Positions 5,334-59,501 of a DNA stretch of 64,000 nt are shown here, piece after piece. The notes beneath the pieces are model-generated. The model did not search any database, was not told where the DNA came from, and saw only the letters and a program-made list of their open reading frames with translations. The stretch spans positions 1 through 64,000 of the forward strand of contig CAJTCS010000005.1 in assembly GCA_910574995.1 (NCBI GenBank), written 5' to 3'. This DNA comes from Oscillospiraceae bacterium (GTDB taxonomy: Bacteria; Bacillota; Clostridia; Oscillospirales; Acutalibacteraceae). Both the position numbers and the translations under genes were made by a program. Within the stretch, counting starts at the first letter, position 1; the number at the start of each line of letters is the position of its first letter.

Positions 5334-5340
5334 CCTGTGC

Positions 5341-5693
5341 GACCAGGCCTGTAAGCCGGGTTCTGTCTTAGGCAGTCATCTATCTTGGCCTGCCGTTGCC
5401 GGCAGGCTCACGCCACCTCCATGGGACGCGCGGGGCTGCGCCGCAGCTTTTGCTGCTGTCCCTCCACGGTGTTGCTTCGGATAGGGTTTACAGGGCCGTG
5501 CGGTCTCCCGCACGCCGGTGAGCTCTTACCTCGCCTTTCCACCCTTACCGGGGAGACCCCGGCGGTATATCTCTGTTGCACTTTCCCTGGGGTCGCCCCC
5601 GGCGGCCGTTAGCCGTTATCCTTGCCCCTTGAAGCCCGGACTTTCCTCAGACGGGGGCTTTCGCCCCGCGCCCGCAACTGCCCGGCCTGGTCA
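5341..5693 (-). ncRNA. rnpB: RNase P RNA, bacterial type A
   Basis: Catalytic RNA that trims the 5' leader of tRNA precursors. Read on the minus strand, the 5' end GACCAGGCC (5684-5692) pairs with the 3' end GGCCTGGTC to form P1. The conserved GAGGAAAGTCCGGGC block follows about 50 bases later, and the gene ends with AGAACCCGGCTTACAGG, the universal 3' CR-V/P4 region. The length of about 353 bases is typical. Ends are set by the P1 helix. Several open frames across it are artefacts. Confidence 0.95.
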
Positions 5694-48741: not shown

Positions 48742-49455
48742 ATGCTAAAGTTTGCTATTGTCGATGACGACCAGAAGACATTAAAGCGTGTGGAAGACTT
48801 TGCACGAGCTTATATGCAGAATGCAGACGATTCGTTCCAAATTAAAAGCTTTACAAAGTCCATCAATCTGATCTCATCCATACTTGACGGCGACCGCTTT
48901 GACCTCTACCTGCTGGACGTAGAGATGCCCGGTTCCAGCGGGATTGAGACAGCGGAAGTCATCCGCAAGCTTCAACCTGTAGCGGTGATTATCTTTCTCA
49001 CCTCCTACCTGCAATACGCTCCCAAGGGATATCCGGTCCATGCGCTGCGGTACATCCTGAAGGAGAAGATGGATGAAGAACTGCCGGAAGCCCTTGGGAA
49101 AGCGCTAGAGAACCTGGCGGAGATGGACCACTCCTGCCTGATGGTCACCCACTACGGAAACGTGACCCGGGTCCGGCATAAGGACATCATCTATGTACGC
49201 AAGGATTTCCGTAGTGTGTGCATTGTTACCACGGAACAGGGCTCCCTCCAGGACAAACGGGGAATTAAGGTGCTTTTTGAGGAACTGAATGACATCCGGT
49301 TTACATTTACGGACCGGAGCTGCTTTATTAACTTAAATTTTGCATTGGGGATTGAAGGCAACTGGATGGTCATGAAGAATGGAGAGCGCCTGCCTATCAG
49401 CCGACCTATGATGCCGAAAGTAAAAGATGCCATTATGCAGCTTTGGGGAGGATGA
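48742..49455 (+). CDS. AgrA-like LytTR response regulator
   Basis: A 237-residue regulator. The receiver (1-125) has the acidic group DDD (8-10), phosphoacceptor Asp59 (YLLDVEMPGSSG) and a switch Thr in FLTSYLQ. A LytTR DNA-binding domain (about 135-235) has DIIYVRKDFRSVCIVT, FTFTDRSCFINLNFALGI and LPISRPMMPKVKDAI. This is the AgrA plan. GC content rises from the middle of this gene compared with the gene before it. It forms an operon with the kinase, 3 bases apart. Confidence 0.9.
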   Translation: MLKFAIVDDDQKTLKRVEDFARAYMQNADDSFQIKSFTKSINLISSILDGDRFDLYLLDVEMPGSSGIETAEVIRKLQPVAVIIFLTSYLQYAPKGYPVHALRYILKEKMDEELPEALGKALENLAEMDHSCLMVTHYGNVTRVRHKDIIYVRKDFRSVCIVTTEQGSLQDKRGIKVLFEELNDIRFTFTDRSCFINLNFALGIEGNWMVMKNGERLPISRPMMPKVKDAIMQLWGG

Positions 49456-49458
49456 AAT

Positions 49459-50844
49459 ATGGAGCTTCTTTGTTCAGCCATCGAGATATTGGCAAGCTTC
49501 ACAGAGGGTATTTTAATTCTCAGCACAATTATTACCGCCGCAGGGCCTAAATACGGAAAAGTAAAAACGTATTGGCTCACATTCTTTTGTGCGGTTTTAA
49601 CAACGGGATACCTTATCGTTATGAATGCGTGGTCAGCTTTTTCCTTTATTACTCCAATTGGCGGTATTCTTTTCTATATCTTTTTTGCTGGAAAGTGGCT
49701 CTCGAAGGGAAAGCTTGCGTTGCGAGCTATTTCCTGCGTTCTAGCTTTCTTTGTGGTACAAACCATCGACTATATACTCATTATAGGGGAAGCGTTGCTA
49801 TATGGAAACCCTCAAAACTTCTTCTACCACTGCCTACAGCCTGGCTGGCCAAGAATAGGCTATTTATTTCTTGATAAAGGCTGTGACATAGTTTTCTTTT
49901 ACCTGTTGCGGAAGCATCTAACAAAGTTATCTATCTTACGGAATAACACGATGATACGGTTATGTGTTTGTACTGCGCTTTCCTATGGAGCAATGCAATA
50001 TTTATTTGCGATGGTTTTATATGGTGATTTCATTCAGTTGCAGGGTGCCGCAATGATTTCCTTCTTCATTTTGTTGTGCTTCCTCTTTATTTTGGTGTTT
50101 TCCATGATTACCTTAACGGCCTCTGAAAAGGAAAAAGCCACCAACCTGATGCTGGGAAAGCTGAATCAGATGATGGAGGAGAACTATTATATGCTGAATC
50201 AGACCATTCTGGACCACGCAAAGGTTGTCCATGATTTCCATCATCATCTTTCCGCTATCAGCACGCTGTCCCAAAATGGGGAGTGCGCCCAAATTCCGGA
50301 GTACATCCACTCCCTGCTGAGTACCTCCTTCATTCCCGCCAAGCTCTGCCGCAGCGGGAGCAGTATTGTGGATGCCGTAATCAACTCCAAGCTGAGCGAG
50401 GCCGGGCAGAAGGAGATACAGGCTGAGTATGAAATTCATATAAATGACCTCTCCTCATTTGAGTCAGCCGATATCTGCGCGATTCTGTCAAACCAGATTG
50501 AAAACGCCTTTGAAGCCTGCGAAAAGCTGGAACAGGGCCGCAAGGTTCAAATCGACATCCGGCAGCAGGGGAACTTTGTGCTGTTCCGAGTGGTAAACCC
50601 CGTGGCCCAGGACCCCTTCATCGCCAACAAGGGCCTTGCCTCCACGAAAAGCGACACCTCAAGGATGCACGGGATGGGGCTGAAAAATTTGCAGGACATC
50701 TCGGGCAAATATAACGGCTCCTTGAAGAACGAATATGCGAATGGACGCTTTATTTCGACGGTTTTGCTCTGTGTTGATACAGTTAAATACATAAAAACCT
50801 ACAATTCGCGCAAAAAGCCTGCTTTTTTGATTTTTCTGCTGTAG
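49459..50844 (+). CDS. AgrC-like GHKL sensor kinase
   Basis: A 461-residue quorum-sensing kinase: six to seven membrane segments (about 6-28, 37-58, 62-80, 88-110, 135-152, 165-190, 197-220), a coiled linker, the phosphoacceptor region LDHAKVVHDFHHHLSAIS (His258), and a GHKL ATPase without F box: LSNQIENAFEAC (N box) and HGMGLKNLQDISGKYNGSL (G box). The last 20 residues beyond the fold (KYIKTYNSRKKPAFLIFLL) look like a read-through tail. It would detect the AgrD-derived peptide. Confidence 0.92.
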   Translation: MELLCSAIEILASFTEGILILSTIITAAGPKYGKVKTYWLTFFCAVLTTGYLIVMNAWSAFSFITPIGGILFYIFFAGKWLSKGKLALRAISCVLAFFVVQTIDYILIIGEALLYGNPQNFFYHCLQPGWPRIGYLFLDKGCDIVFFYLLRKHLTKLSILRNNTMIRLCVCTALSYGAMQYLFAMVLYGDFIQLQGAAMISFFILLCFLFILVFSMITLTASEKEKATNLMLGKLNQMMEENYYMLNQTILDHAKVVHDFHHHLSAISTLSQNGECAQIPEYIHSLLSTSFIPAKLCRSGSSIVDAVINSKLSEAGQKEIQAEYEIHINDLSSFESADICAILSNQIENAFEACEKLEQGRKVQIDIRQQGNFVLFRVVNPVAQDPFIANKGLASTKSDTSRMHGMGLKNLQDISGKYNGSLKNEYANGRFISTVLLCVDTVKYIKTYNSRKKPAFLIFLL

Positions 50845-50888
50845 AATATAAACATCAGCCAGAGAATTTAGATAGGGAGGCGGCTGCC

Positions 50889-51478
50889 ATGCTGGAAAAA
50901 CCTCGATTGCATTAACAGAGTTCTTTTGCCGCAAAGGGGCCATTGATGCCTCAAAAAAGCCAATCTTTATTTACGGCTTCCAACTGGCGTTATCAACATT
51001 GTGTTCTCTTATCTCTATTTCTATTCTTTCTGTCTGCTTGGGCACGCCCTTGTCTGCCCTTATGTTTTTCCTTGTCTTCTTTTGCACGAGGCTCTTTTCC
51101 GGCGGCTATCATGCCAGTTCTTACCACAGGTGTTTCCTTCTGACGAATACGGTATATCTTGCAATCGTATTGTTTGCAGGGCTTTTTGCTCGAACATCAT
51201 CTTTCCTTTTTCACATATTTATTCAAGCAATTGCTGGTGTTGTTATCTTAGTGTTGGCACCAATCCGGCACCCTAATCACCCCTTATCTGAAACTATATA
51301 CCAGAGAAACCAGAAAACTGCCAGGTGGATGGTAGTTCTATTTGAGCTGTCGTTTCCGCTCCTATACTATTTGAGTGGAAACTTGTATTTGATGTCTCTT
51401 TTTTCCGCATCACTTATGGCTGTAGCCATATTGATGATAATTCCCAAATATCAGGAAAGGAGAGGTCACCATGAGTAG
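50889..51478 (+). pseudogene. agrB: AgrB-like peptide-processing protease, one-base frameshift near the start
   Basis: Membrane endopeptidase that cleaves and cyclises AgrD. GGGAGG then ATGCTGGAAAAACC gives an immediate stop after MLEKPRLH. With a sixth A it reads MLEKTSIALTEFFCRKGAIDASKKP and continues without break into the AgrB body: FFCTRLFSGGYHASSYHRCF holds the active-site His (GGYHA) and Cys (HRC). Several membrane segments follow to 51478. No other start exists before a TTG at 50999, which would delete the N-terminus. It is either inactive, phase-variable through the A run (50896-50900), or a sequence error. Confidence 0.75.
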
Positions 51479-51590
51479 TATATGGGCTGCAATCGCTTCT
51501 ATCATTGAGGCCTTTGCAAATCTGGGTGCTGGACTCACCTCGTTTGGTACGGGGTATGAGCCAAAATTGCCCAAAGAGCTCCAGAAGTAA
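51471..51590 (+). CDS. agrD: AgrD-like autoinducer precursor with Ser instead of Cys
   Basis: A 39-residue precursor too short for routine gene calling. An amphipathic N-terminus (MSSIWAAIASIIEAFANLG) is followed by GAGLTSFGTG and the charged tail YEPKLPKELQK. Aligned to S. aureus AgrD by its PKEL tail, the five-residue ring would be S-F-G-T-G, cut before Tyr29, with Ser24 in place of the usual Cys. The signal would thus be a lactone, not a thiolactone. It overlaps the AgrB stop by 8 bases and has AAAGGAGAGG ahead. A terminator follows. Confidence 0.8.
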   Translation: MSSIWAAIASIIEAFANLGAGLTSFGTGYEPKLPKELQK

Positions 51591-51891: not shown

Positions 51892-52662
51892 ATGAACAAA
51901 CAGAAAAAGTGGTACATATCCAAGGTGTTCCCTTTCTTGGGAGTGCGCTTTATTGCCGTAAACGATGGAATTGACAGCATCCGGCCCAGCGACATTGACA
52001 GTCTGGACACCTCATTCAAGGCGCTGCTTTATGACCTCTACAGCCGTGACTTGTCCCGCAAAACGCGCAGTGCCAGACGGTTCCGGGCGCAGAAAGGCGA
52101 GTACCTGGGGGCGCGTCCTCTGTACGGATATGTGAAAGACCCGGAGCGGAAGAATCACTTGATTATTGACCCGCCCGCCGCTGAAATCGTTCGACATATC
52201 TTCTCCATGGTAGGCGGCGGGATGTCCATAGCACAAACTGCAAAGACGCTAAATCAGCAGCAAATTCCCACCCCTATGCAATACAAAATCTCCGCAGGGA
52301 CTTTCGTTAATTGGCACTGCGTTTCAAAAGAGAATTTCTGGACGGAGGCGGCGGTTCTGCGGGTTGTCCGCGATGAGCAGTATACCGGTTCGACTGTGTA
52401 CGGCAGACGGTACTATGACATTATAGGCCAAAAACACAGCGTGAAGGTCAGCAAAAAGGACTGGATCGTTGTGCCGGATGTCCATGAACCTATCGTTTCC
52501 CGAGAGGAATATGACCAGGCGCAGGCCGCTTTGAAAGAGTATAAGGAGCGGGATGTGGTAGCCGGGACGAAAACAAAAATCCGGTGTGGGGGTTGCGGCC
52601 ATGCCATGGAGCGGCACAACACAAAACAGCCCTACTATGACTGCCGGACCCTGCGGGTAACA
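51892..52662 (+). pseudogene. large serine recombinase fragment
   Basis: From about residue 10 the frame is a large serine recombinase: VFPFLGVRFIAVNDGIDS, the recombinase domain (GARPLYGYVKDPERK … AAEIVRHIF … LNQQQIPTP … YTGSTVYGRR) and the start of the zinc ribbon (IRCGGCGHAMERHN). The N-terminal catalytic domain with the nucleophilic serine is missing, and the C-terminus is cut at the join to an IS200-like fragment. It is a dead remnant of the enzyme that moved an element here. Confidence 0.8.
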
Positions 52663-52854
52663 GATATGGATATGGTCCGGGCACACTTCTGCTTCTATGA
52701 TTTTGACCTTCTTCCACTCACACAGTGTTCGCAAAATTTCTCCTATCTCTCTCCTCTTTTCTCCATAGAAGACTTTTCTGCGATATTTCGGCGCAAATAC
52801 TATGTGATATTTGCAATTCCATTTCGTGTGTGATAAACTATTTACGTCATTCAC
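52663..52854 (-). pseudogene. tnpA: IS200/IS605-type TnpA transposase, N-terminal fragment
   Basis: A GTG start at 52854 opens NDVNSLSHTKWNCKYHIVFAPKYRRK, then EVCPDHIHI: the start of a Y1 transposase up to the HUH motif (HIH). The homology then stops at the recombinase fragment, and the catalytic Tyr is absent. The frame that continues further is the recombinase read backwards. Confidence 0.8.
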
Positions 52855-52863
52855 TTTGGATGA

Positions 52864-52924
52864 CCTCCCTTTGCTTATTTGGTGCAGCTGCCAGACCGCA
52901 CCTGTATTCTATTGCAAAGGGAGG
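52864..52924 (-). promoter_or_regulatory. IS200 leader hairpin masking the tnpA ribosome site
   Basis: CCTCCCTTTGC (52864-52874) pairs perfectly with GCAAAGGGAGG (52914-52924), with an inner GGTGC / GCACC stem. On the minus strand the 3' arm ends AAGGGAGG just before the GTG start. This matches the known IS200 strategy of hiding the tnpA ribosome site. Confidence 0.65.
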
Positions 52925-52960
52925 TTTTTTGTCTTCATCATCGCCATTAGGCTTTTTTTG

Positions 52961-52983
52961 AACCACTCGCCTTGCGAGTGGTT
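52961..52983. repeat. short perfect hairpin, probable IS200 end
   Basis: AACCACTCGC CTT GCGAGTGGTT followed by TT. Compact imperfect or perfect hairpins mark the ends of IS200/IS605 elements; it could also act as a plus-strand terminator. Confidence 0.5.
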
Positions 52984-53008: not shown

Positions 53009-53036
53009 TTGACATTGCCGGAGCGTATGCTATAAT
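53009..53036 (+). promoter_or_regulatory. strong promoter of the antisense RNA
   Basis: TTGACA (53009-53014), 16-base spacer, TATAAT (53031-53036). Both hexamers are perfect. It fires toward the 3' end of the hydrophobic-peptide gene on the other strand. Confidence 0.8.
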
Positions 53037-53042
53037 AAATAT

Positions 53043-53135
53043 AAAGAGGGCGTTGCTACATGGCGGTCAGCCCCTAACTAACACAAATGTCTATGTTAGC
53101 CGTTCGGGTACCAGCCGAGCGGCTAACACGCTTTT
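53043..53135 (+). ncRNA. candidate antitoxin RNA, antisense to the small hydrophobic peptide mRNA
   Basis: About 90 bases from the predicted start of transcription to a perfect 9-bp hairpin (TGTTAGCCG / CGGCTAACA, 53094-53128) followed by CGCTTTT. It contains no open frame longer than five codons. It overlaps the end of the peptide gene on the minus strand. Its 5' part (AGAGGGCGTTGCTACAT-GGCGGTCAGC) resembles the 5' leader of the facing mRNA (AGAGGACGTTGCTGCAT…GGCGGTTAGC). Strong promoter, hairpin end and convergent overlap are the plan of type I antitoxins. Confidence 0.6.
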
Positions 53136-53221
53136 ATGGGTGCTATGTAGGCTAGCAGCAAAGCTACTATTGCCAACACCAGCACGAACCGCAGGGCTTT
53201 CGCCCAACGAGAACTTCCCAT
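53123..53221 (-). CDS. 32-residue hydrophobic peptide, candidate type I toxin
   Basis: An ATG at 53221 behind a perfect AAGGAGGGAGG site encodes MGSSRWAKALRF, a membrane span VLVLAIVALLLAYIA and a short PIKAC tail. A basic N-terminus with one helix across the membrane is the hallmark of type I toxins, which depolarise the membrane when over-made. The mRNA starts from a consensus promoter (53347-53374), has a leader of about 120 bases with a second unused ribosome-like site (AGGAGGTGAT near 53262-53275), and ends in the hairpin shared with the antisense RNA. No homologue is claimed. Confidence 0.6.
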   Translation of the reverse strand: MGSSRWAKALRFVLVLAIVALLLAYIAPIKAC

Positions 53222-53346
53222 CAGCGTCACCTCCCTCCTTGTTGAAAGTAGGGAAAGTGTATCACCTCCTCTCTATGAGGAAGTGAGCTAACCGCCTTTT
53301 ATGCAGCAACGTCCTCTTGCCTGGCACATTGTGCCGGGCACTTTTT

Positions 53347-53374
53347 ATTATAGCAGGCTGTCGGTTTTTGTCAA
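53347..53374 (-). promoter_or_regulatory. strong promoter of the hydrophobic-peptide mRNA
   Basis: Minus strand: TTGACA (53369-53374), 16-base spacer, TATAAT (53347-53352). It has the same hexamers and spacing as the facing promoter at 53009. It lies directly after the small gene ending at 53380. Confidence 0.8.
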
Positions 53375-53379
53375 TTCCT

Positions 53380-53706
53380 TTAAGACTCTTCCTGCACGGA
53401 GCCGTCCGGCGTTTCGGACTTGGAAAGGGAAAGGCTTATTTGCTTGTCGCCGGTGGGCAGCAGGCGCTGGGAAAGGAAGTTTATTTTACTGTACCCGGCG
53501 GCCTCCAGGCAGGGCTTTTCGCCCAGCAGCACCTGGATGTTGTCCAGCGCGCCCTCTTCCTGTAAAAGCCCCAGGTACCAGGCCAGAGGGTGGGCCGCGG
53601 GCGTGGCTTCCATCCGCAGGGTCAGGCCCAGGGAATCCAGGCCGTAGACCTCCTCCACGGCGGTGGCGGTAAACGTCTTGCAGGTAGCTAATTTCACTGT
53701 AAACAT
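53380..53706 (-). CDS. unknown small protein
   Basis: A 108-residue soluble protein beginning MFTVKLATCKTFTATAVEEVYG, with later LTLRMEATPAAHPLAWYLGLLQEEGALDNIQVLL. It is mixed alpha/beta by pattern with no known motif. It starts one base after the stop of the 70-residue gene, so it is the last gene of a tightly packed three-gene operon. The composition is host-like (GC-rich), unlike the accessory region to its left. Confidence 0.6.
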   Translation of the reverse strand: MFTVKLATCKTFTATAVEEVYGLDSLGLTLRMEATPAAHPLAWYLGLLQEEGALDNIQVLLGEKPCLEAAGYSKINFLSQRLLPTGDKQISLSLSKSETPDGSVQEES

Positions 53707-53919
53707 TTAAAATTCCTCCAATCGTTTCAGGTTCTGCCATTCTTCTTTTGGGATGATTTCCAGCGCCCATTCCTCCGGGACGTGGATGGTAAAGCGCTTG
53801 CCCATCCCCCGGGCCCTGTAAAACCTATTCCAATAATAAGCATTGGCCAGGGCACGGGCCTTGTGCATTACGCAGATAAAAGTGGCCCGCTTATTTACGT
53901 GTACGCCGAGATTAGGCAT
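53707..53919 (-). CDS. unknown small basic protein
   Basis: A 70-residue protein (MPNLGVHVNKRATFICVMHKARALANAYYWNRFYRARGMGK…) rich in Arg/Tyr/Trp, with an acidic C-terminus (WALEIIPKEEWQNLKRLEEF). Its ATG overlaps the stop of the gene before it (ATGCCTAA), so it is translationally coupled. No domain is recognised. Confidence 0.6.
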   Translation of the reverse strand: MPNLGVHVNKRATFICVMHKARALANAYYWNRFYRARGMGKRFTIHVPEEWALEIIPKEEWQNLKRLEEF

Positions 53920-54206: not shown

Positions 54207-56918
54207 TTACTGCGCCTCTACCTGCTCTGGGACATGGAAAAAAGAAACGGCCGCATCATCTTTCCTCATGAATAATAGGCCGAAGGAACCTGGCCCACAG
54301 TTGCTTGCGATGGCCGAAGAGGCTTTTTGCAGATAGACCCGGTCAAACCGGCAGTACTGCTGCACCAGGCTTTGGATATATTGCAGCTTCTTTTCATCCA
54401 TCCCCGAGTAAGTGATGAACAGGATGCGCCGGTCAATATTCCGGGTGTCCATCAGCGCCTGCCTGACATAGCTTTTTGCCATGCGGTAAAAATTACCCAT
54501 CTTCATGCCCTGGACGACCATCTTGCTTCTTTTCAGCACAAGCACTGGATGCAGCAGAAGCGAATCACAGAGGATCTGTACTTTCTTTGAAATCCGCCCA
54601 GCCTGACGGAGCATGCTGGTATCGTTGATAATAAAAGCAGAGGAGATAAACCGTTTCATCCGCTTTACCGTCTCTACAATCTCCTCCTTGCCGGCATGGC
54701 GCTCTGCCATATAGGCCGCGCACAGCACAATCAGCCCCATGCTGCTGGACAGGTGGCCGGAATCGACCACGGTAACATTTTCAAAGGATTTTGCCGCCTC
54801 GCAGGCATTTTCATACCCCATGCTGACATGCTTCGCCATTGTGATGTGGATTACATTCTGGGCCTCTGTCAGCTTCTCCGCAAAAAACCGTTCATAATCT
54901 TCCACCTCTGGCGCCTGGGAATACCCCTTCCGGCCCTCGGCGATATGCATCAGCAGTTCATCCGGCTTCAGCTCCTGCTCATCCAAGAAGCGCCCGTCGT
55001 CTGTACAGACATAGTAAGGGCATACGGGGATGCCGAATTTCTTCCGAAGGGACCCTGGCAGGTCGCACACGCTGTCTGTTGTGACCAGGATGGAGCGCCG
55101 TTTTTCTTGTTCGAAAATCAATATATCCTTTTCGATGTCCGCCTGGCTTACCTCCTCGTTCAGCTGTACCAGCTCTTTTGGCAAGACGCTGAGCACGGCT
55201 GCCTCCAGCAGCGCCCCGCTGACCGGCTTGGCCAGATACCCACTGAACCCTTCCTTCCGGTATAAGAGTTGGTTGTCGCTGCCCGCATTGGCTGTCAAGG
55301 CCACCACAGGCACGTTCTGGCACAAGCCCACCGGCTGCGCCCGCAGGGCATGCAGGCACTCTATCCCGTCCATCTCTGGCATCATGTGGTCCATAAGGAT
55401 GCAGTCATACTGGTGGTTCTGGGTCAGCTTCAGGCATTCCGCGCCGCTTTTGGCCGTATCAATCTGGATTTTCGTCCCAGAAAGCAGCTTGCTTACCACC
55501 ATCAGGTTCATATCGTTGTCGTCCACGACAAGGATGTGGGCGTCCGGCGCCTCAAAGCTTTGCCGGTACGCCTCCCCCGCGTGGCTTTTGGCCCGGGAAG
55601 CCAGCGTAAAGGTTCCCAAATCCTTCTCGTCCACGATGTCCTGTTCCAGCATGACAATAAAGGTAGACCCCTTTGTATACACGCTGTTTACGCTGATCTC
55701 CCCTCCCATCATTTCCACCAGCTGCTGGACAATGCTTAGCCCCAGCCCGGTGCCCTCGATATAGCGGTTCTTTTCCTCGTCTACCCGCCGGAAGGCATTG
55801 AAAATATAGGGGATGTTCTCCTTCTTCACCCCCTGCCCGGTGTCCTCTACAGAATACCACACCCGCACCCGGTTGAGTGACAGGCGTTCGCACCGCACCG
55901 AAAGTGTGACCGACCCCTCGCTGGTATACTTCACCGCGTTGTTCAGCAGGTTTATCAGGATCTGCTTGATGCGCACCTCGTCCCCGCAAAGCATGCTGGG
56001 GATAGAGGGGTCTACATGGAGCTTGAACTCCAGGCCCTTTTCCCTGGCCTTTATCCATATCATATTGACGATCTCTGAAAAGAGCGCCCCTGTTTCATAC
56101 GAGACATTGACGATCTCCATCTTCCCCGATTTGATCTTGGACAGGTCCAGCGTATCGTTGATCAGCGTAAGCAGCAGCTTGCTGGCGCCCTGGATGTTCC
56201 GGGCGTTCTCCGCCACATCCTCTGGGACCTCCCCCCGCAGGATGATCTCATTAAGCCCGATGATGGTGTTAATGGGCGTGCGTATCTCATGGCTCATGCT
56301 GGAAAAAAAGTGGTTTTCCGCGCGGTTCAGCTCTTCAATCTCTTTCTTCTGCTGCTGGGAAAGCTTATTCTCCTCTTCATACATCTTGTTCAAAAACATC
56401 AACAGGATACTGACCAACAGCCCCACCATAATCACGGAAAAGGCCGAGTCAAAAAAAGAGGACTGCTGGGTGCTGCGCGCGGCAAGCTCGGGAAAGTAAA
56501 AGGCGGCGCCATAGCAAAGCAGCGTCTCCAGCATGCAAAGCCCGAAAAACACAATCATGCGCCTGCCCCGCAGGGTGATGCAGACATAGATGAAACAAAA
56601 GATGAACCACTCTGGCACCCCGCTGTAAAACCCGCCCGCTGTAAAAAAGCTGATGGGGAACAGTAAAAGCAGCAGCAGGGAAATGGCCGTGGCCCCGGTC
56701 TGGATACGCTCTTTTTTGATGCTGACCCGCACAATCATCCCTATGGCTACAAGGCTTACCGCCAGCGCCAGGATATTCCAAATACTCCTGCCCATGGGCA
56801 TAATCAACAGCAGCGCCGCCATGCAGATGACCGTTACGATACGGAACATGCGGTCATGCAGGCTGATTCTGTGGTCGTTGATAAGTGCAAACCATTTTTT
56901 TATCACGTGCTCTTCCAT
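54207..56918 (-). CDS. hybrid histidine kinase with receiver and C-terminal DegV domain
   Basis: About 903 residues. Six to seven membrane segments occupy residues 24-180. Then a coiled linker, HisKA with His210 (FFSSMSHEIRTPINTIIG) and HATPase (about 310-430; NLLNNAVKYTS, EDTGQGV, GTGLGLSIVQQL). A receiver follows at about 462-580 (VVDDND, Asp510 in DCILMDHMMPEMDG, KPVSG). Residues about 608-898 are a DegV-type lipid-binding domain: LVTTDSVCDLP, VTVVDSGHLSSSMG, INDTSMLRQAGRISK, LFITYSGMDEKKL. DegV proteins bind fatty acids. It is the last gene of the receiver/kinase/kinase operon. The start is uncertain: ATG 56918 is close to GGAAGG, with a TTG at 56939. Confidence 0.88.
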   Translation of the reverse strand: MEEHVIKKWFALINDHRISLHDRMFRIVTVICMAALLLIMPMGRSIWNILALAVSLVAIGMIVRVSIKKERIQTGATAISLLLLLLFPISFFTAGGFYSGVPEWFIFCFIYVCITLRGRRMIVFFGLCMLETLLCYGAAFYFPELAARSTQQSSFFDSAFSVIMVGLLVSILLMFLNKMYEEENKLSQQQKKEIEELNRAENHFFSSMSHEIRTPINTIIGLNEIILRGEVPEDVAENARNIQGASKLLLTLINDTLDLSKIKSGKMEIVNVSYETGALFSEIVNMIWIKAREKGLEFKLHVDPSIPSMLCGDEVRIKQILINLLNNAVKYTSEGSVTLSVRCERLSLNRVRVWYSVEDTGQGVKKENIPYIFNAFRRVDEEKNRYIEGTGLGLSIVQQLVEMMGGEISVNSVYTKGSTFIVMLEQDIVDEKDLGTFTLASRAKSHAGEAYRQSFEAPDAHILVVDDNDMNLMVVSKLLSGTKIQIDTAKSGAECLKLTQNHQYDCILMDHMMPEMDGIECLHALRAQPVGLCQNVPVVALTANAGSDNQLLYRKEGFSGYLAKPVSGALLEAAVLSVLPKELVQLNEEVSQADIEKDILIFEQEKRRSILVTTDSVCDLPGSLRKKFGIPVCPYYVCTDDGRFLDEQELKPDELLMHIAEGRKGYSQAPEVEDYERFFAEKLTEAQNVIHITMAKHVSMGYENACEAAKSFENVTVVDSGHLSSSMGLIVLCAAYMAERHAGKEEIVETVKRMKRFISSAFIINDTSMLRQAGRISKKVQILCDSLLLHPVLVLKRSKMVVQGMKMGNFYRMAKSYVRQALMDTRNIDRRILFITYSGMDEKKLQYIQSLVQQYCRFDRVYLQKASSAIASNCGPGSFGLLFMRKDDAAVSFFHVPEQVEAQ

Positions 56919-56954
56919 CCTTCCAACACGGTAATTCAACAGAGGGCGCCGGCG

Positions 56955-59501
56955 TTACACACCGGCAAGCTGCCCGCACAGCTCTTCGTGGGCGTGCAGC
57001 AGGGCCGCGTGGTGTTCGCGGATAAAATCCCCGTCGCCCGCTTTCCCCGCCAGCTCCAGCGCCTTTGCCTGGGCGGAAAACCCTTCCGCCCCGATCGTCA
57101 GGGAAGTGCTTTTCAACGCGTGGACCTTCACCGCGTATTCCGCCCAGTCTCCGCTTTCATATAGGGAAACGATCTCGTCCCGCTTCCCCTGGCCCTGGTC
57201 CCGGAACATCCGCAGCATTTCCCGGTAAAAATCCTGGTCCCCCGCGCAATAGTCCAGCCCCAGGTCCACATTGAAACCAGCCTGGGCCAGCGCCTCGAAG
57301 GGGGCCGCCCCACCCTCGGCTTCCGGCTGGGCTTCCGCCCCAGCCGCCGCGTTGGCTTTTACATCCCCCGCCTCTTCCGGCGCCGCCTCAACCGGGGAGA
57401 GCTCTTCTGCCTCTGCAGGGGCGCCCTTCCCCCCAGGCTTTGCGCTGTATTGGATGCGGCTTTTGGGCAGCACCTTCCGCAGCACACGTTCCAAGACGGT
57501 GCGTTCAATGGGCTTCGGGACAAATTCCGTAAAGCCTTCGCTGCGGAACATCTCCCTCGCGCCGCTTAACGTGTTGGCCGTCAGCGCGATCATCGGCAGG
57601 TTTTTATACTTGCCCCCCCGCAGCCCGCGGATCCGTTTCAGGGTTTCCACACCGTCAAAGCCTGGCATCATGTGGTCAAGAAAAACAATGTCATACACCG
57701 TGCTTTCACACCGGGCTATGGCCTCCCGGCCGCTTAGGCAGGTGTCCACCTCAATCCCATAGCTGCCCAGCACACCCTTGGCTACCACCAGGTTCATCTC
57801 TTCATCGTCCACCGTCAAAGCCCGCACGCCTACGCAGGTAAAGGGCTTGCGGCCCGCGGCCTGGTCCTCTGCAAAGCCCCGCTCGCCCAGTTCCCCGTTA
57901 AGCAGGTTTGCCACAGAAAGGGCGGAAAAGGGCTTATGTATCACCAGCAGCTTACTTCCGCTGTCCAAAACAAACTCCCGCTCTGCTATTACGATGACCC
58001 GCAGGGTCCCCGCCAGCTCTTCATAATAGGCGGGGTTCTCTTCATATTCCGGCTGGGCGATAAACACATGGGTTAAGGGCTGGCTACGCTGCAGCCGCAG
58101 CAGGCCCTCGAAATTATGGGCCTGATATCCCCGTATCGTAAACCCTTCCATCAGCCTCAAGATCAGCCCGTCGTAATAGTCCCGCACCTCGTCCCGCGTA
58201 TATTTTTCCGGCTTAAAATAGCAAGCGATGCATAGGTTCTCCGGATGGGCCAGCACGATGCAGGGGCGCGGATCTGCCACGCCCTGCGGGATCACAATGT
58301 GGGCATGCAGGCCCTCCTTGTCCTTGCTGTCAAAATGGATAAAACCGCCCATGGCAATCAAAAGCCCCCGGGCAATGGGAAGCCCCAGGCCCAGGCCGCC
58401 CGCAAAGCGGTTGCTCCCGCTGTCGGCCTGGTAGAAATCGTCGTACATTTTGACCAGCTGGGCGTCTGTCATGCCAATGCCCGTATCACGGATATCTATG
58501 ACCAGGTTGATGCCGTAGCCTTCCTGCCGGTACCCGATACGGATATTTACGCCGCCCTCTTCTGTAAACTTGACAGAGTTTTCCACCAAAATCTTAAGCA
58601 CATGGGAAATTTTCTCCGCATCCCCAATGAGCACGGCCGGCGTCTTGGGGTCAATGTCAAACACCAACTCTAAATGCTGCCGGTTGGTCTGCAGGGCAGT
58701 GGACGTGATCACGTCGTTGAGCACGGAGGTGATCATGTACTCTTCCCGCGCCGGGGTCAGCGTGCCGGCCACAATCTCCGTATAGTCCATCATGTTGCTG
58801 ATCTGGCTGGAAAGGCGCTTCCCCGCTATTCGAATGGAGTTCATATCCGCGCGCACATCCGCGGGAAGGGATTTCCCCAGCGCCACGTCGCTGATGCCGA
58901 TGACCATATTGATAGGGGTGCGCAGCTCGTGGGAGACATTGGACAAAAAGACGGCATTCTGTTTCCCCACCGTCTGCAGCTCTTCGAATAAGCGTTCATA
59001 CCACTGCCGCTGGAGGTTGCGCTTGTTGATCCAATACCGGGCCAGCACCGTCCCCCAAAAGACCACCGTTGCGCCAAGCCCCAGGCGCAGCAGTTCCTGG
59101 GCCGTCATAGCAGGGGTAATCGTGCGCAGGACCAGGACGTGGTACAGCAGCGCCACTATATATAGGGAAACCATCACATACAAAATCCATTTCTTATTCA
59201 GCGTGAACAGGGAGAAGACCAAGATCCCTGCCATGGCGGGGATATCGAAAAGGCTGGTCTCATGCACGCAATAGAAAAAGAATTCCAGCAGCAGCAGCCC
59301 GGCGCACAGGCTTTCGTACAGCGTGGCCGGGCCAATCCTGGCAATGTGCAGGACCCACACGCCAAGGCACCCCGCCACCACCAACGGGAGGATCCATAGC
59401 TCCCAGGCCATAATTATAGTAACCAAGGCCAGCATGCTGCTGAAAATCGTGGTGATGACAGCCAGCAGCAAATGTTTGCCTGTTTGCTCCTCCACCCTCA
59501 T
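56955..59501 (-). CDS. hybrid histidine kinase with receiver and HPt domain
   Basis: An 848-residue membrane phosphorelay protein. Five to six membrane segments (about 10-155), HisKA with His191 (FLSNVSHELRTPINMVIG), HATPase (about 290-405; RDTGIGM, GGLGLGLPIARG), a degenerate receiver-like part (about 410-530), a true receiver (about 560-680; LTVDDEEMN, IVFLDHMMPGFDG, KPIERT), an Ala/Glu/Pro linker (about 695-745) and a C-terminal HPt (about 750-845) with the phosphoacceptor His in VHALKSTSLTIGA. Its ATG overlaps the stop of the receiver gene before it (ATGA). Together the operon can run a full multistep phosphorelay. Confidence 0.92.
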   Translation of the reverse strand: MRVEEQTGKHLLLAVITTIFSSMLALVTIIMAWELWILPLVVAGCLGVWVLHIARIGPATLYESLCAGLLLLEFFFYCVHETSLFDIPAMAGILVFSLFTLNKKWILYVMVSLYIVALLYHVLVLRTITPAMTAQELLRLGLGATVVFWGTVLARYWINKRNLQRQWYERLFEELQTVGKQNAVFLSNVSHELRTPINMVIGISDVALGKSLPADVRADMNSIRIAGKRLSSQISNMMDYTEIVAGTLTPAREEYMITSVLNDVITSTALQTNRQHLELVFDIDPKTPAVLIGDAEKISHVLKILVENSVKFTEEGGVNIRIGYRQEGYGINLVIDIRDTGIGMTDAQLVKMYDDFYQADSGSNRFAGGLGLGLPIARGLLIAMGGFIHFDSKDKEGLHAHIVIPQGVADPRPCIVLAHPENLCIACYFKPEKYTRDEVRDYYDGLILRLMEGFTIRGYQAHNFEGLLRLQRSQPLTHVFIAQPEYEENPAYYEELAGTLRVIVIAEREFVLDSGSKLLVIHKPFSALSVANLLNGELGERGFAEDQAAGRKPFTCVGVRALTVDDEEMNLVVAKGVLGSYGIEVDTCLSGREAIARCESTVYDIVFLDHMMPGFDGVETLKRIRGLRGGKYKNLPMIALTANTLSGAREMFRSEGFTEFVPKPIERTVLERVLRKVLPKSRIQYSAKPGGKGAPAEAEELSPVEAAPEEAGDVKANAAAGAEAQPEAEGGAAPFEALAQAGFNVDLGLDYCAGDQDFYREMLRMFRDQGQGKRDEIVSLYESGDWAEYAVKVHALKSTSLTIGAEGFSAQAKALELAGKAGDGDFIREHHAALLHAHEELCGQLAGV

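Follow-up and report, generated by a model that had tools for sequence, protein, structure and literature searches.

The window, a 64,000-nt stretch forming the first part of contig CAJTCS010000005.1 of an Oscillospiraceae genome (GCA_910574995.1), carries at 53009–53374 a compact element made of two facing, putative transcription units. On the minus strand, a promoter at 53347–53374 (TTGACA at 53374–53369, 16 bp, TATAAT at 53352–53347) is followed by a stem–loop at the predicted mRNA 5′ terminus (P0, 53318–53340), a leader (53287–53317), two Shine–Dalgarno (SD) hairpins, and an open reading frame at 53123–53221 (ATG at 53221, TAG ending at 53123) for a 32-residue peptide, MGSSRWAKALRFVLVLAIVALLLAYIAPIKAC, plus stop. 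P0 was recognized by eye, without a formal count, and in many relatives its arms vary in sequence and keep their complementarity (also by eye). SD hairpin 1 (53261–53285) contains an "unused" ribosome-like site, AGGAGGTGAT (53270–53261), and SD hairpin 2 (53228–53259) contains the start-proximal SD site, GGAGGGAGGTG (53238–53228). On the plus strand, a second promoter (53009–53036; TTGACA at 53009–53014, 16 bp, TATAAT at 53031–53036) precedes a leader hairpin (P1, 53045–53073), a hypervariable segment referred to here as the tag, or barcode (53074–53094), and a terminator (53094–53135) composed of hairpin P3 (53094–53128) and GCTTTT (53130–53135). Pairing of the tag with the terminator's 5′ arm would give a further helix, P2. 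We call the peptide the toxin and the plus-strand RNA the antitoxin, for reasons developed below.

The two leaders mirror each other, with the pattern AGAGG.CGTTGCT.CAT..GGCGGT.AGC occurring at 53045–53073 on the plus strand and at 53317–53287 on the minus strand. The toxin mRNA is predicted to end within 53039–53073 (minus strand), in a segment made up of the P1 complement and, after it, a U-rich stretch, and this end would form the 3′ strand of a panhandle whose 5′ strand is the toxin leader. A sequence-only reading of this DNA had proposed a type I toxin–antitoxin locus from the two promoters, the 32-residue frame with its SD site, the hairpin at 53094–53128, and the similar leaders, and we located every one of these parts where it had been placed. 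The proposed overlap between the antisense RNA and the peptide mRNA was likewise borne out, as the antisense terminator overlaps the peptide stop codon.

A DNA search of the element's own genome (3.45 Mb, 54 contigs) returned 11 matches at nine places: seven full-length copies including that of the window, one with the antitoxin only, and one without the antitoxin. The six other full or nearly full copies (C10, C6, C21, C4, C17, and C12) show 75%–81% identity; the incomplete ones are located at C5:248 kb, broken into three pieces, and on C8 (partial). Across 99 near genomes, 17 had DNA matches (own genome included; 15 same-genus), and one of these matches (G081, locus L024) is probably a chance hit that the profile does not support. 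Pattern scans matched 24 viral contigs and 69 genome contigs, with hosts among Acutalibacter, Neglectibacter, Oscillibacter, Pseudoflavonifractor, Lawsonibacter, Evtepia, Agathobaculum, and many further gut Clostridia. NCBI taxonomy places Acutalibacter in Acutalibacteraceae and Oscillibacter in Oscillospiraceae; in GTDB, both belong to Oscillospirales. These scans preset part of the terminator and AAAGCGT, so the conservation of these bases is partly built in for pattern-scan loci; the own-genome and 99-genome searches did not fix them.

A nucleotide profile backs 120 of 128 loci, and the eight without a profile match (L024, L052, L067, L068, L086, L087, L098, and L117) were taken as chance. 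The 108 full hits condense into 84 non-redundant elements (68 from genomes, 16 from viral contigs). A covariance model built on the antisense RNA (R1; match threshold E 0.001) matched 33 out of 394 genomes of the order and seven out of 391 of the class (own genome in both), five of the latter seven lying outside the order. Several genomes have multiple copies, and one (G314) has nine, some in a row. At curated cut-offs, an Rfam search of the whole window found no family at the locus, and a lax search of 1001 bases gave eight matches, all below the cut-offs, of which only a neighboring STnc490 match was worth noting. BLAST of the element against phage and plasmid records gave no match, and neither did the peptide of a relative against phage records.

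Of the 84 assigned peptides, 78 are 23–33 residues long, with a basic start and a single hydrophobic span; the remaining six, which include wrongly chosen starts and broken frames, were omitted from the codon test and the peptide counts. A 17-residue hydrophobic window is present in all 78, the first 11 residues have a mean net charge of +2.5, and the C terminus reads KAC in 64, KAY in 12, and KAR in two. The codon test (78 peptides, 288 pairs, last three codons excluded) gave a pN/pS of 0.56 in frame versus 0.73 and 1.49 in the other frames, with 2271, 1127, and 2442 differences at codon positions 1, 2, and 3, the second changing half as often. This pattern indicates a short, hydrophobic, single-span peptide kept by selection, as is required of a type I toxin gene; lack of conservation of the frame in relatives, which the sequence-only reading had named as the outcome that would tell against it, is not what we observed. 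A few elements, L018 and L100 among them, have a damaged frame or SD site. Comparison of the window peptide with Pfam, NCBIfam, and PHROGs matched no known toxin profile, with zero Pfam families at E up to 1; a PHROGs hit at E 0.17 was dismissed as noise.

Both promoters recur throughout the family. The best promoter score was at least 11 out of 12 on the toxin side of 68 and on the antitoxin side of 81 of the 84 elements, a level reached by 12 of 5000 90-nt windows drawn at random from the non-element parts of these loci (spacers of 16–18 were allowed in this control and of 15–19 in the element scan, where the best promoters all had 16–18). Perfect promoters were more frequent on the antitoxin side (71/84) than on the toxin side (35/84), in line with an excess of antitoxin. 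The predicted antitoxin RNA is ∼100 nt long and consists of the P1 leader hairpin, the variable segment, the P3 terminator hairpin, and CGCTTTT. In an alignment of 67 antitoxins (A2; eight of 75 representatives removed by hand), 99.7% of the P3 cells are paired and seven of 13 pairs carry compensatory changes, and shifting the partners abolishes the pairing; P1 is paired in 93.4% of cells. The count of further pair types in P3 showed no excess over shuffles (428 out of 500 equally high), and the count of double-changed pairs was reached by 19 out of 500. By sequence, the element holds an antisense RNA gene with its own promoter and with a terminator that overlaps the toxin mRNA, as type I antitoxins do.

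One P3 pair is U·G in 60 of the 67 antisense sequences, and since its equivalent on the toxin strand is an A·C mismatch, P3 appears to be kept for the antisense RNA. The earlier suggestion that both RNAs stop at this hairpin therefore stands for the antisense RNA and is not confirmed for the peptide mRNA, whose strand has the mismatch and no U-run after the hairpin; the shared hairpin looks like a terminator of the antitoxin only. The antitoxin U-run is the complement of the toxin's Lys–Ala codons, so two constraints act on the conserved KA end. The variable segment shows a tendency to base-pair with P3's 5′ arm, with a mean longest stem of 4.4 compared to 2.7 when shuffled (the maximum of 200 shuffle means was 3.2), and segments from foreign loci gave 4.7 where the arm was the same and 3.5 where it was another. 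A helix between the variable segment and this arm is incompatible with the base of P3 and may be the earlier of the two to form as the RNA is transcribed.

The toxin leader starts in many elements with a small 5′ hairpin, after which comes the repeat of antitoxin P1. Short forms of the family have a single hairpin that hides the SD site (CACUUCCCU-loop-AGGGAGGUG), and long forms, the window included, have two, the first of which corresponds to the sole hairpin of the short forms and carries the unused ribosome-like site. This site had been likened to those of standby-controlled toxins. It is present, and because it sits within that corresponding SD hairpin, sequestration is no less likely than standby; no start codon follows this first SD-like site in the sequences examined. 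In the long-form alignment, SD hairpin 1 contains two pieces with only 59% and 35% of cells paired. The SD site is predicted to be <30% unpaired in 70 out of 78 loci for the full-length mRNA and in 75 out of 78 when the mRNA is cut behind P3. Since the SD sites are predicted to pair whether or not the 3′ end is present, the panhandle is not necessarily the main switch.

The peptide mRNA probably ends ∼55 nt beyond the hairpin, inside the antitoxin leader, so that the ∼100-nt antitoxin would be complementary throughout to its 3′ part. The U-run at this supposed end is only moderate, and the panhandle requires toxin transcription beyond the antitoxin terminator. Full-length toxin mRNAs are predicted to form a 5′–3′ panhandle in 76 of 78 loci, and the predicted window mRNA with its panhandle folds 9.3 standard deviations below shuffles (z −9.3). 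Folding alone is no proof of a panhandle, because mirrored leaders must pair. Independent support comes from the lean of the leader differences described below and from covariation, which was assessed in hand-chosen alignments of 25 out of 42 short forms (A4) and 22 out of 34 long forms (A3), where 10 of 20 and seven of 26 panhandle pairs, respectively, showed compensatory changes; further pair types were not in excess over shuffles (497/500 for short forms, 475/500 for long forms).

Leader similarity was higher within loci (27.3) than across loci (19.8), a value that 0 out of 5000 permutations reached (78 loci; six of the 84 elements were dropped from the leader tests). Measured against the three nearest relatives, a locus's own leader was better in 164 pairs, worse in 53, and tied in 17, these pairs not being independent. 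Where the two leaders of a locus differ, the differences tolerated as wobble in the toxin mRNA outnumber the opposite kind 133 to 52 (T/C 84 vs. C/T 12; G/A 49 vs. A/G 40). The comparisons indicate that the mirrored leaders co-evolve, giving the predicted peptide mRNA a covarying 5′–3′ panhandle of the kind known from hok-like and aapA-like mRNAs. The leader similarity noted by the sequence-only reading is thus real, although it is not a mere relic of duplication, since toxin and antitoxin leaders evolve together. The leaders could also be alike through binding of a common protein, such as an RNase or chaperone, with no pairing within the toxin mRNA, and P1 being itself a hairpin in the antitoxin (the 93.4% of paired cells above) speaks for this. 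We consider it unlikely: Leaders differ across loci yet match within a locus, which a shared binding site would not require, and the lean of their differences toward those tolerated as wobble in the toxin mRNA is a further argument against it.

Among the seven own-genome copies, the tag is 63% alike (55% is expected from shuffled tags), compared to 93% for P1, 93% for P3, and 89% for the coding region. Two of them (L002 and L005) are identical in P3 and 98% alike in the coding region but only 61% alike in the tag. The six copies with 27-residue peptides differ at 0–3 of about 23 synonymous sites, so drift alone is no easy explanation of the tag, unless conversion homogenizes everything else. 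Two copies (L003 and L005) have an identical tag and the window copy is one base different from another (L004), which argues against tags being strictly private to each copy. In three other genomes, with nine, six, and five copies, 0 out of 61 pairs have a common tag; P1 and P3 also differ there (tags were extracted with R1 for 20 out of 20 loci). Three of 82 antitoxins were left unparsed in the tag comparison. These data suggest that the 19- to 25-nt antitoxin segment, close to random in sequence among own-genome copies, is a specificity tag. Zor/Orz of Escherichia coli O157 offers a parallel, in that a short variable antitoxin region picks the homologous toxin mRNA; in the account of that system, the region that sets the specificity of Orz RNAs (V1) comprises 3 nt of an 18-nt complementary stretch (PMC3919570), whereas here the segment is 19–25 nt and the RNA is complementary throughout. 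Type I antitoxins of Clostridioides difficile are described as acting mainly on the cognate toxin, though some mismatches are tolerated (PMC7699646).

Model R1 also finds loci that have, by eye, the same RNA layout with different peptides. One such locus in the window's own genome (L145, G000:C4:300008–300103) encodes a 30-residue peptide, MSAYETLSITMMVLSIVVMLLIAYINSTKK, of holin-like look and with no match in Pfam, and the peptide of another (L176) matches Hol_Tox weakly (E 0.095). Further loci include three (L166, L168, and L173) that encode cationic peptides of about 22–27 residues lacking a clear membrane span, which might represent another toxin type. Hol_Tox (PF16935) loci occur in six out of 147 genomes of the order and show, by eye, the SD hairpin, the stop in or beside a hairpin, the facing promoter, and the mirrored leaders, that is, the layout of the window family. 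Their upstream and downstream leaders score 27.3 within and 18.0 across loci (0/5000 permutations; nine of 10 loci, one at a contig end being omitted), with the own leader best or tied at six out of nine; the outer flanks showed no within-locus likeness in seven testable loci. An earlier test of 11 Hol_Tox-type loci, with leader segments picked by eye, had the own leader best or tied at 10. A Hol_Tox peptide searched against phage records gave weak Brevibacillus hits only. One RNA layout hence carries unrelated candidate toxins, Hol_Tox included. To our knowledge, mirrored leaders are not a defining feature of Hol_Tox in print. The window peptide itself has no match to the Hol_Tox/TxpA–BsrG profile and ends in KAC, not in a lysine tail.

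The genomic setting of the element is that of a prophage, in agreement with the mobile-element home proposed earlier. All eight other KAC-type copies in the own genome have an r1t-type holin gene 357–687 bp away; an amidase gene is near six of the eight, a radical SAM gene or remnant is within a few kilobases of six, and a tail-fiber gene is near two. These neighbors place the copies between the tail and lysis genes of related prophages. Radical SAM genes were seen by prophage tail genes at L195:6744–8048 and L198:8998–10356, and L198:10346–11689 is similar by eye. In the window, the element is adjoined by a 108-residue prophage ORF (53383–53706, minus strand), which has matches at comparable spacing beside three of the other eight copies (L193, L195, and L197), and then by a remnant of a prophage radical SAM protein (53716–53895, minus strand; residues 374–433 of 435). 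The side that holds the lysis genes in the other copies is missing and is occupied by a partial serine recombinase ORF (51892–52833, plus strand), matching only the middle of phrog_95 (181–406 of 651), and by the sub-threshold STnc490 match (52868–52983, minus strand; 50.7 bits, cut-off 56), which we take to be a possible IS200-type remnant. The window element thus reads as an intact copy inside a decayed prophage.

Elsewhere in the window, we noted an agr-like quorum-sensing set at 48742–51590 (LytTR regulator, GHKL kinase, and AgrB), in which a 39-residue ORF at 51471–51590 could be a signal precursor. Beside the prophage remnant, two large ORFs at 54207–59501 have histidine-kinase-like motifs by eye, and a class A RNase P RNA is found at 5336–5693 on the minus strand.

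Multiple copies of about 350 bp with mirrored ends would also be expected of a MITE-like mobile inverted-repeat element, with the mirrored ends being those of a transposon and the peptide only incidental. The eight other KAC-type copies hold a like prophage position near a holin gene, which indicates that prophages have spread and not the element; moreover, the mirrored ends lie within the inward-pointing promoters and co-evolve at each locus, and codon selection acts on the peptide. We regard this explanation as highly improbable. A phage regulatory locus, in which the peptide is a lysis or membrane accessory and the antisense RNA times its expression in the lytic cycle, fits the nearby holin (8/8) and amidase (6/8) genes and the small, single-span peptide. 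Against it are the two promoters near the sigma-70 consensus, which suit steady transcription in a lysogen, and the unrelated peptides on the same RNA layout, and we judge it improbable.

The start-codon loss of the antitoxin-less copy and the elements found in a row fit an addiction toxin better than a lysis accessory. The copy at C5:248 kb (L199), which has no antitoxin, reads ATA for the toxin's ATG and has insertions in the promoter and leader. Its insertions contain inverted repeats. In the copy at C8:178.5 kb (L200), the end of a large ORF stands where the toxin start would be, and the whole antitoxin is kept, with a tag of its own. Decay of this kind, in two cases, suits what is expected of a toxin and its antitoxin.

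Among known systems, hok/sok and aapA/IsoA have long-distance 5′–3′ pairing in their toxin mRNAs, as predicted for the window family, which is unlike them in that the panhandle strand copies the antitoxin leader and in its unrelated peptides and hosts. The window antitoxin faces the toxin from the 3′ side, and the gene arrangement of hok and aapA differs. At aapA3/IsoA3, two successive SD hairpins are reported to guard the nascent mRNA, and a 5′–3′ interaction locks the full-length mRNA until 3′ trimming frees it (PMC6733600), which makes this locus, by analogy, the nearest working model for ours. The convergent, 3′-overlapping arrangement is that described for Gram-positive type I loci (PMC4147584, PMC6563280). 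Fst/par_pAD1 has convergent RNAs, a 3′ overlap, and a shared hairpin, and its direct repeats are described as mediating the pairing of both RNAs (PMC4147584); at the window locus the leader repeats are inverted and not direct, so the leaders are alike in both RNAs, only one of the RNAs seems to end at the hairpin, and the peptide, without a Pfam match, is not of Fst type. C. difficile loci such as CD0977.1–RCd11 share the prophage home, the convergent overlap, and, as described, several co-resident homologs with mostly specific antitoxins (PMC6563280, PMC7699646); their toxins, which by description have 34–59 residues and a charged, lysine-rich C terminus, are unlike the window peptide. We therefore file the locus by its layout as a putative type I toxin–antitoxin system, and not under Hol_Tox, Fst, or hok.

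That layout makes a strong case for the type I reading advanced earlier, backed by the selected peptide, the convergent consensus promoters, the covarying antisense terminator, the prophage home, and the loss of the start codon in the antitoxin-less copy. We think it probable that the locus is a prophage-borne type I toxin–antitoxin system with an undescribed toxin family, whose panhandle mRNA is inert by default and whose antitoxin recognizes it by the tag. In the mechanism we infer, the toxin promoter would yield a ∼300-nt mRNA encoding the 32-residue membrane peptide, and the facing promoter, closer to consensus family-wide, a ∼100-nt antisense RNA ending at the hairpin over the stop codon. 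The mRNA would be inert by default, with local hairpins holding its SD sites and with the 5′ leader, which nearly duplicates that of the antitoxin, paired to the mRNA's 3′ terminus. Once trimmed there, the mRNA would open (cf. hok and aapA) to both translation and antitoxin. Initial recognition of the cognate mRNA would be by the variable tag, after which the antitoxin would pair along its full length, and the mRNA would be cut or silenced. Upon loss of the prophage, the presumably short-lived antitoxin would be the first to disappear, leaving the peptide to damage the membrane.

A title search of the open-access literature found no description of type I toxin–antitoxin loci from these gut Clostridia, where toxin–antitoxin loci seem hardly described. 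If the panhandle is real, hok/aapA-style 5′–3′ control exists in Gram-positive type I loci and has a simple origin, with the mRNA copying the leader of its own antitoxin. The RNA layout, through model R1, also provides a search handle for toxin peptides too short to annotate. More tentatively, and with the odds somewhat against it, the tag may be a diversifying self/non-self code, private to each prophage, on a mirrored-leader RNA chassis common to unrelated Clostridia toxins; as one chassis serves several of these, toxin and tag would be exchangeable cargo. The antitoxin of a resident related prophage could then not neutralize an incoming toxin, and each prophage would be addictive on its own. 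With the tag, a long-standing question becomes testable, namely how several near-identical toxin loci coexist in one genome without cross-neutralizing.
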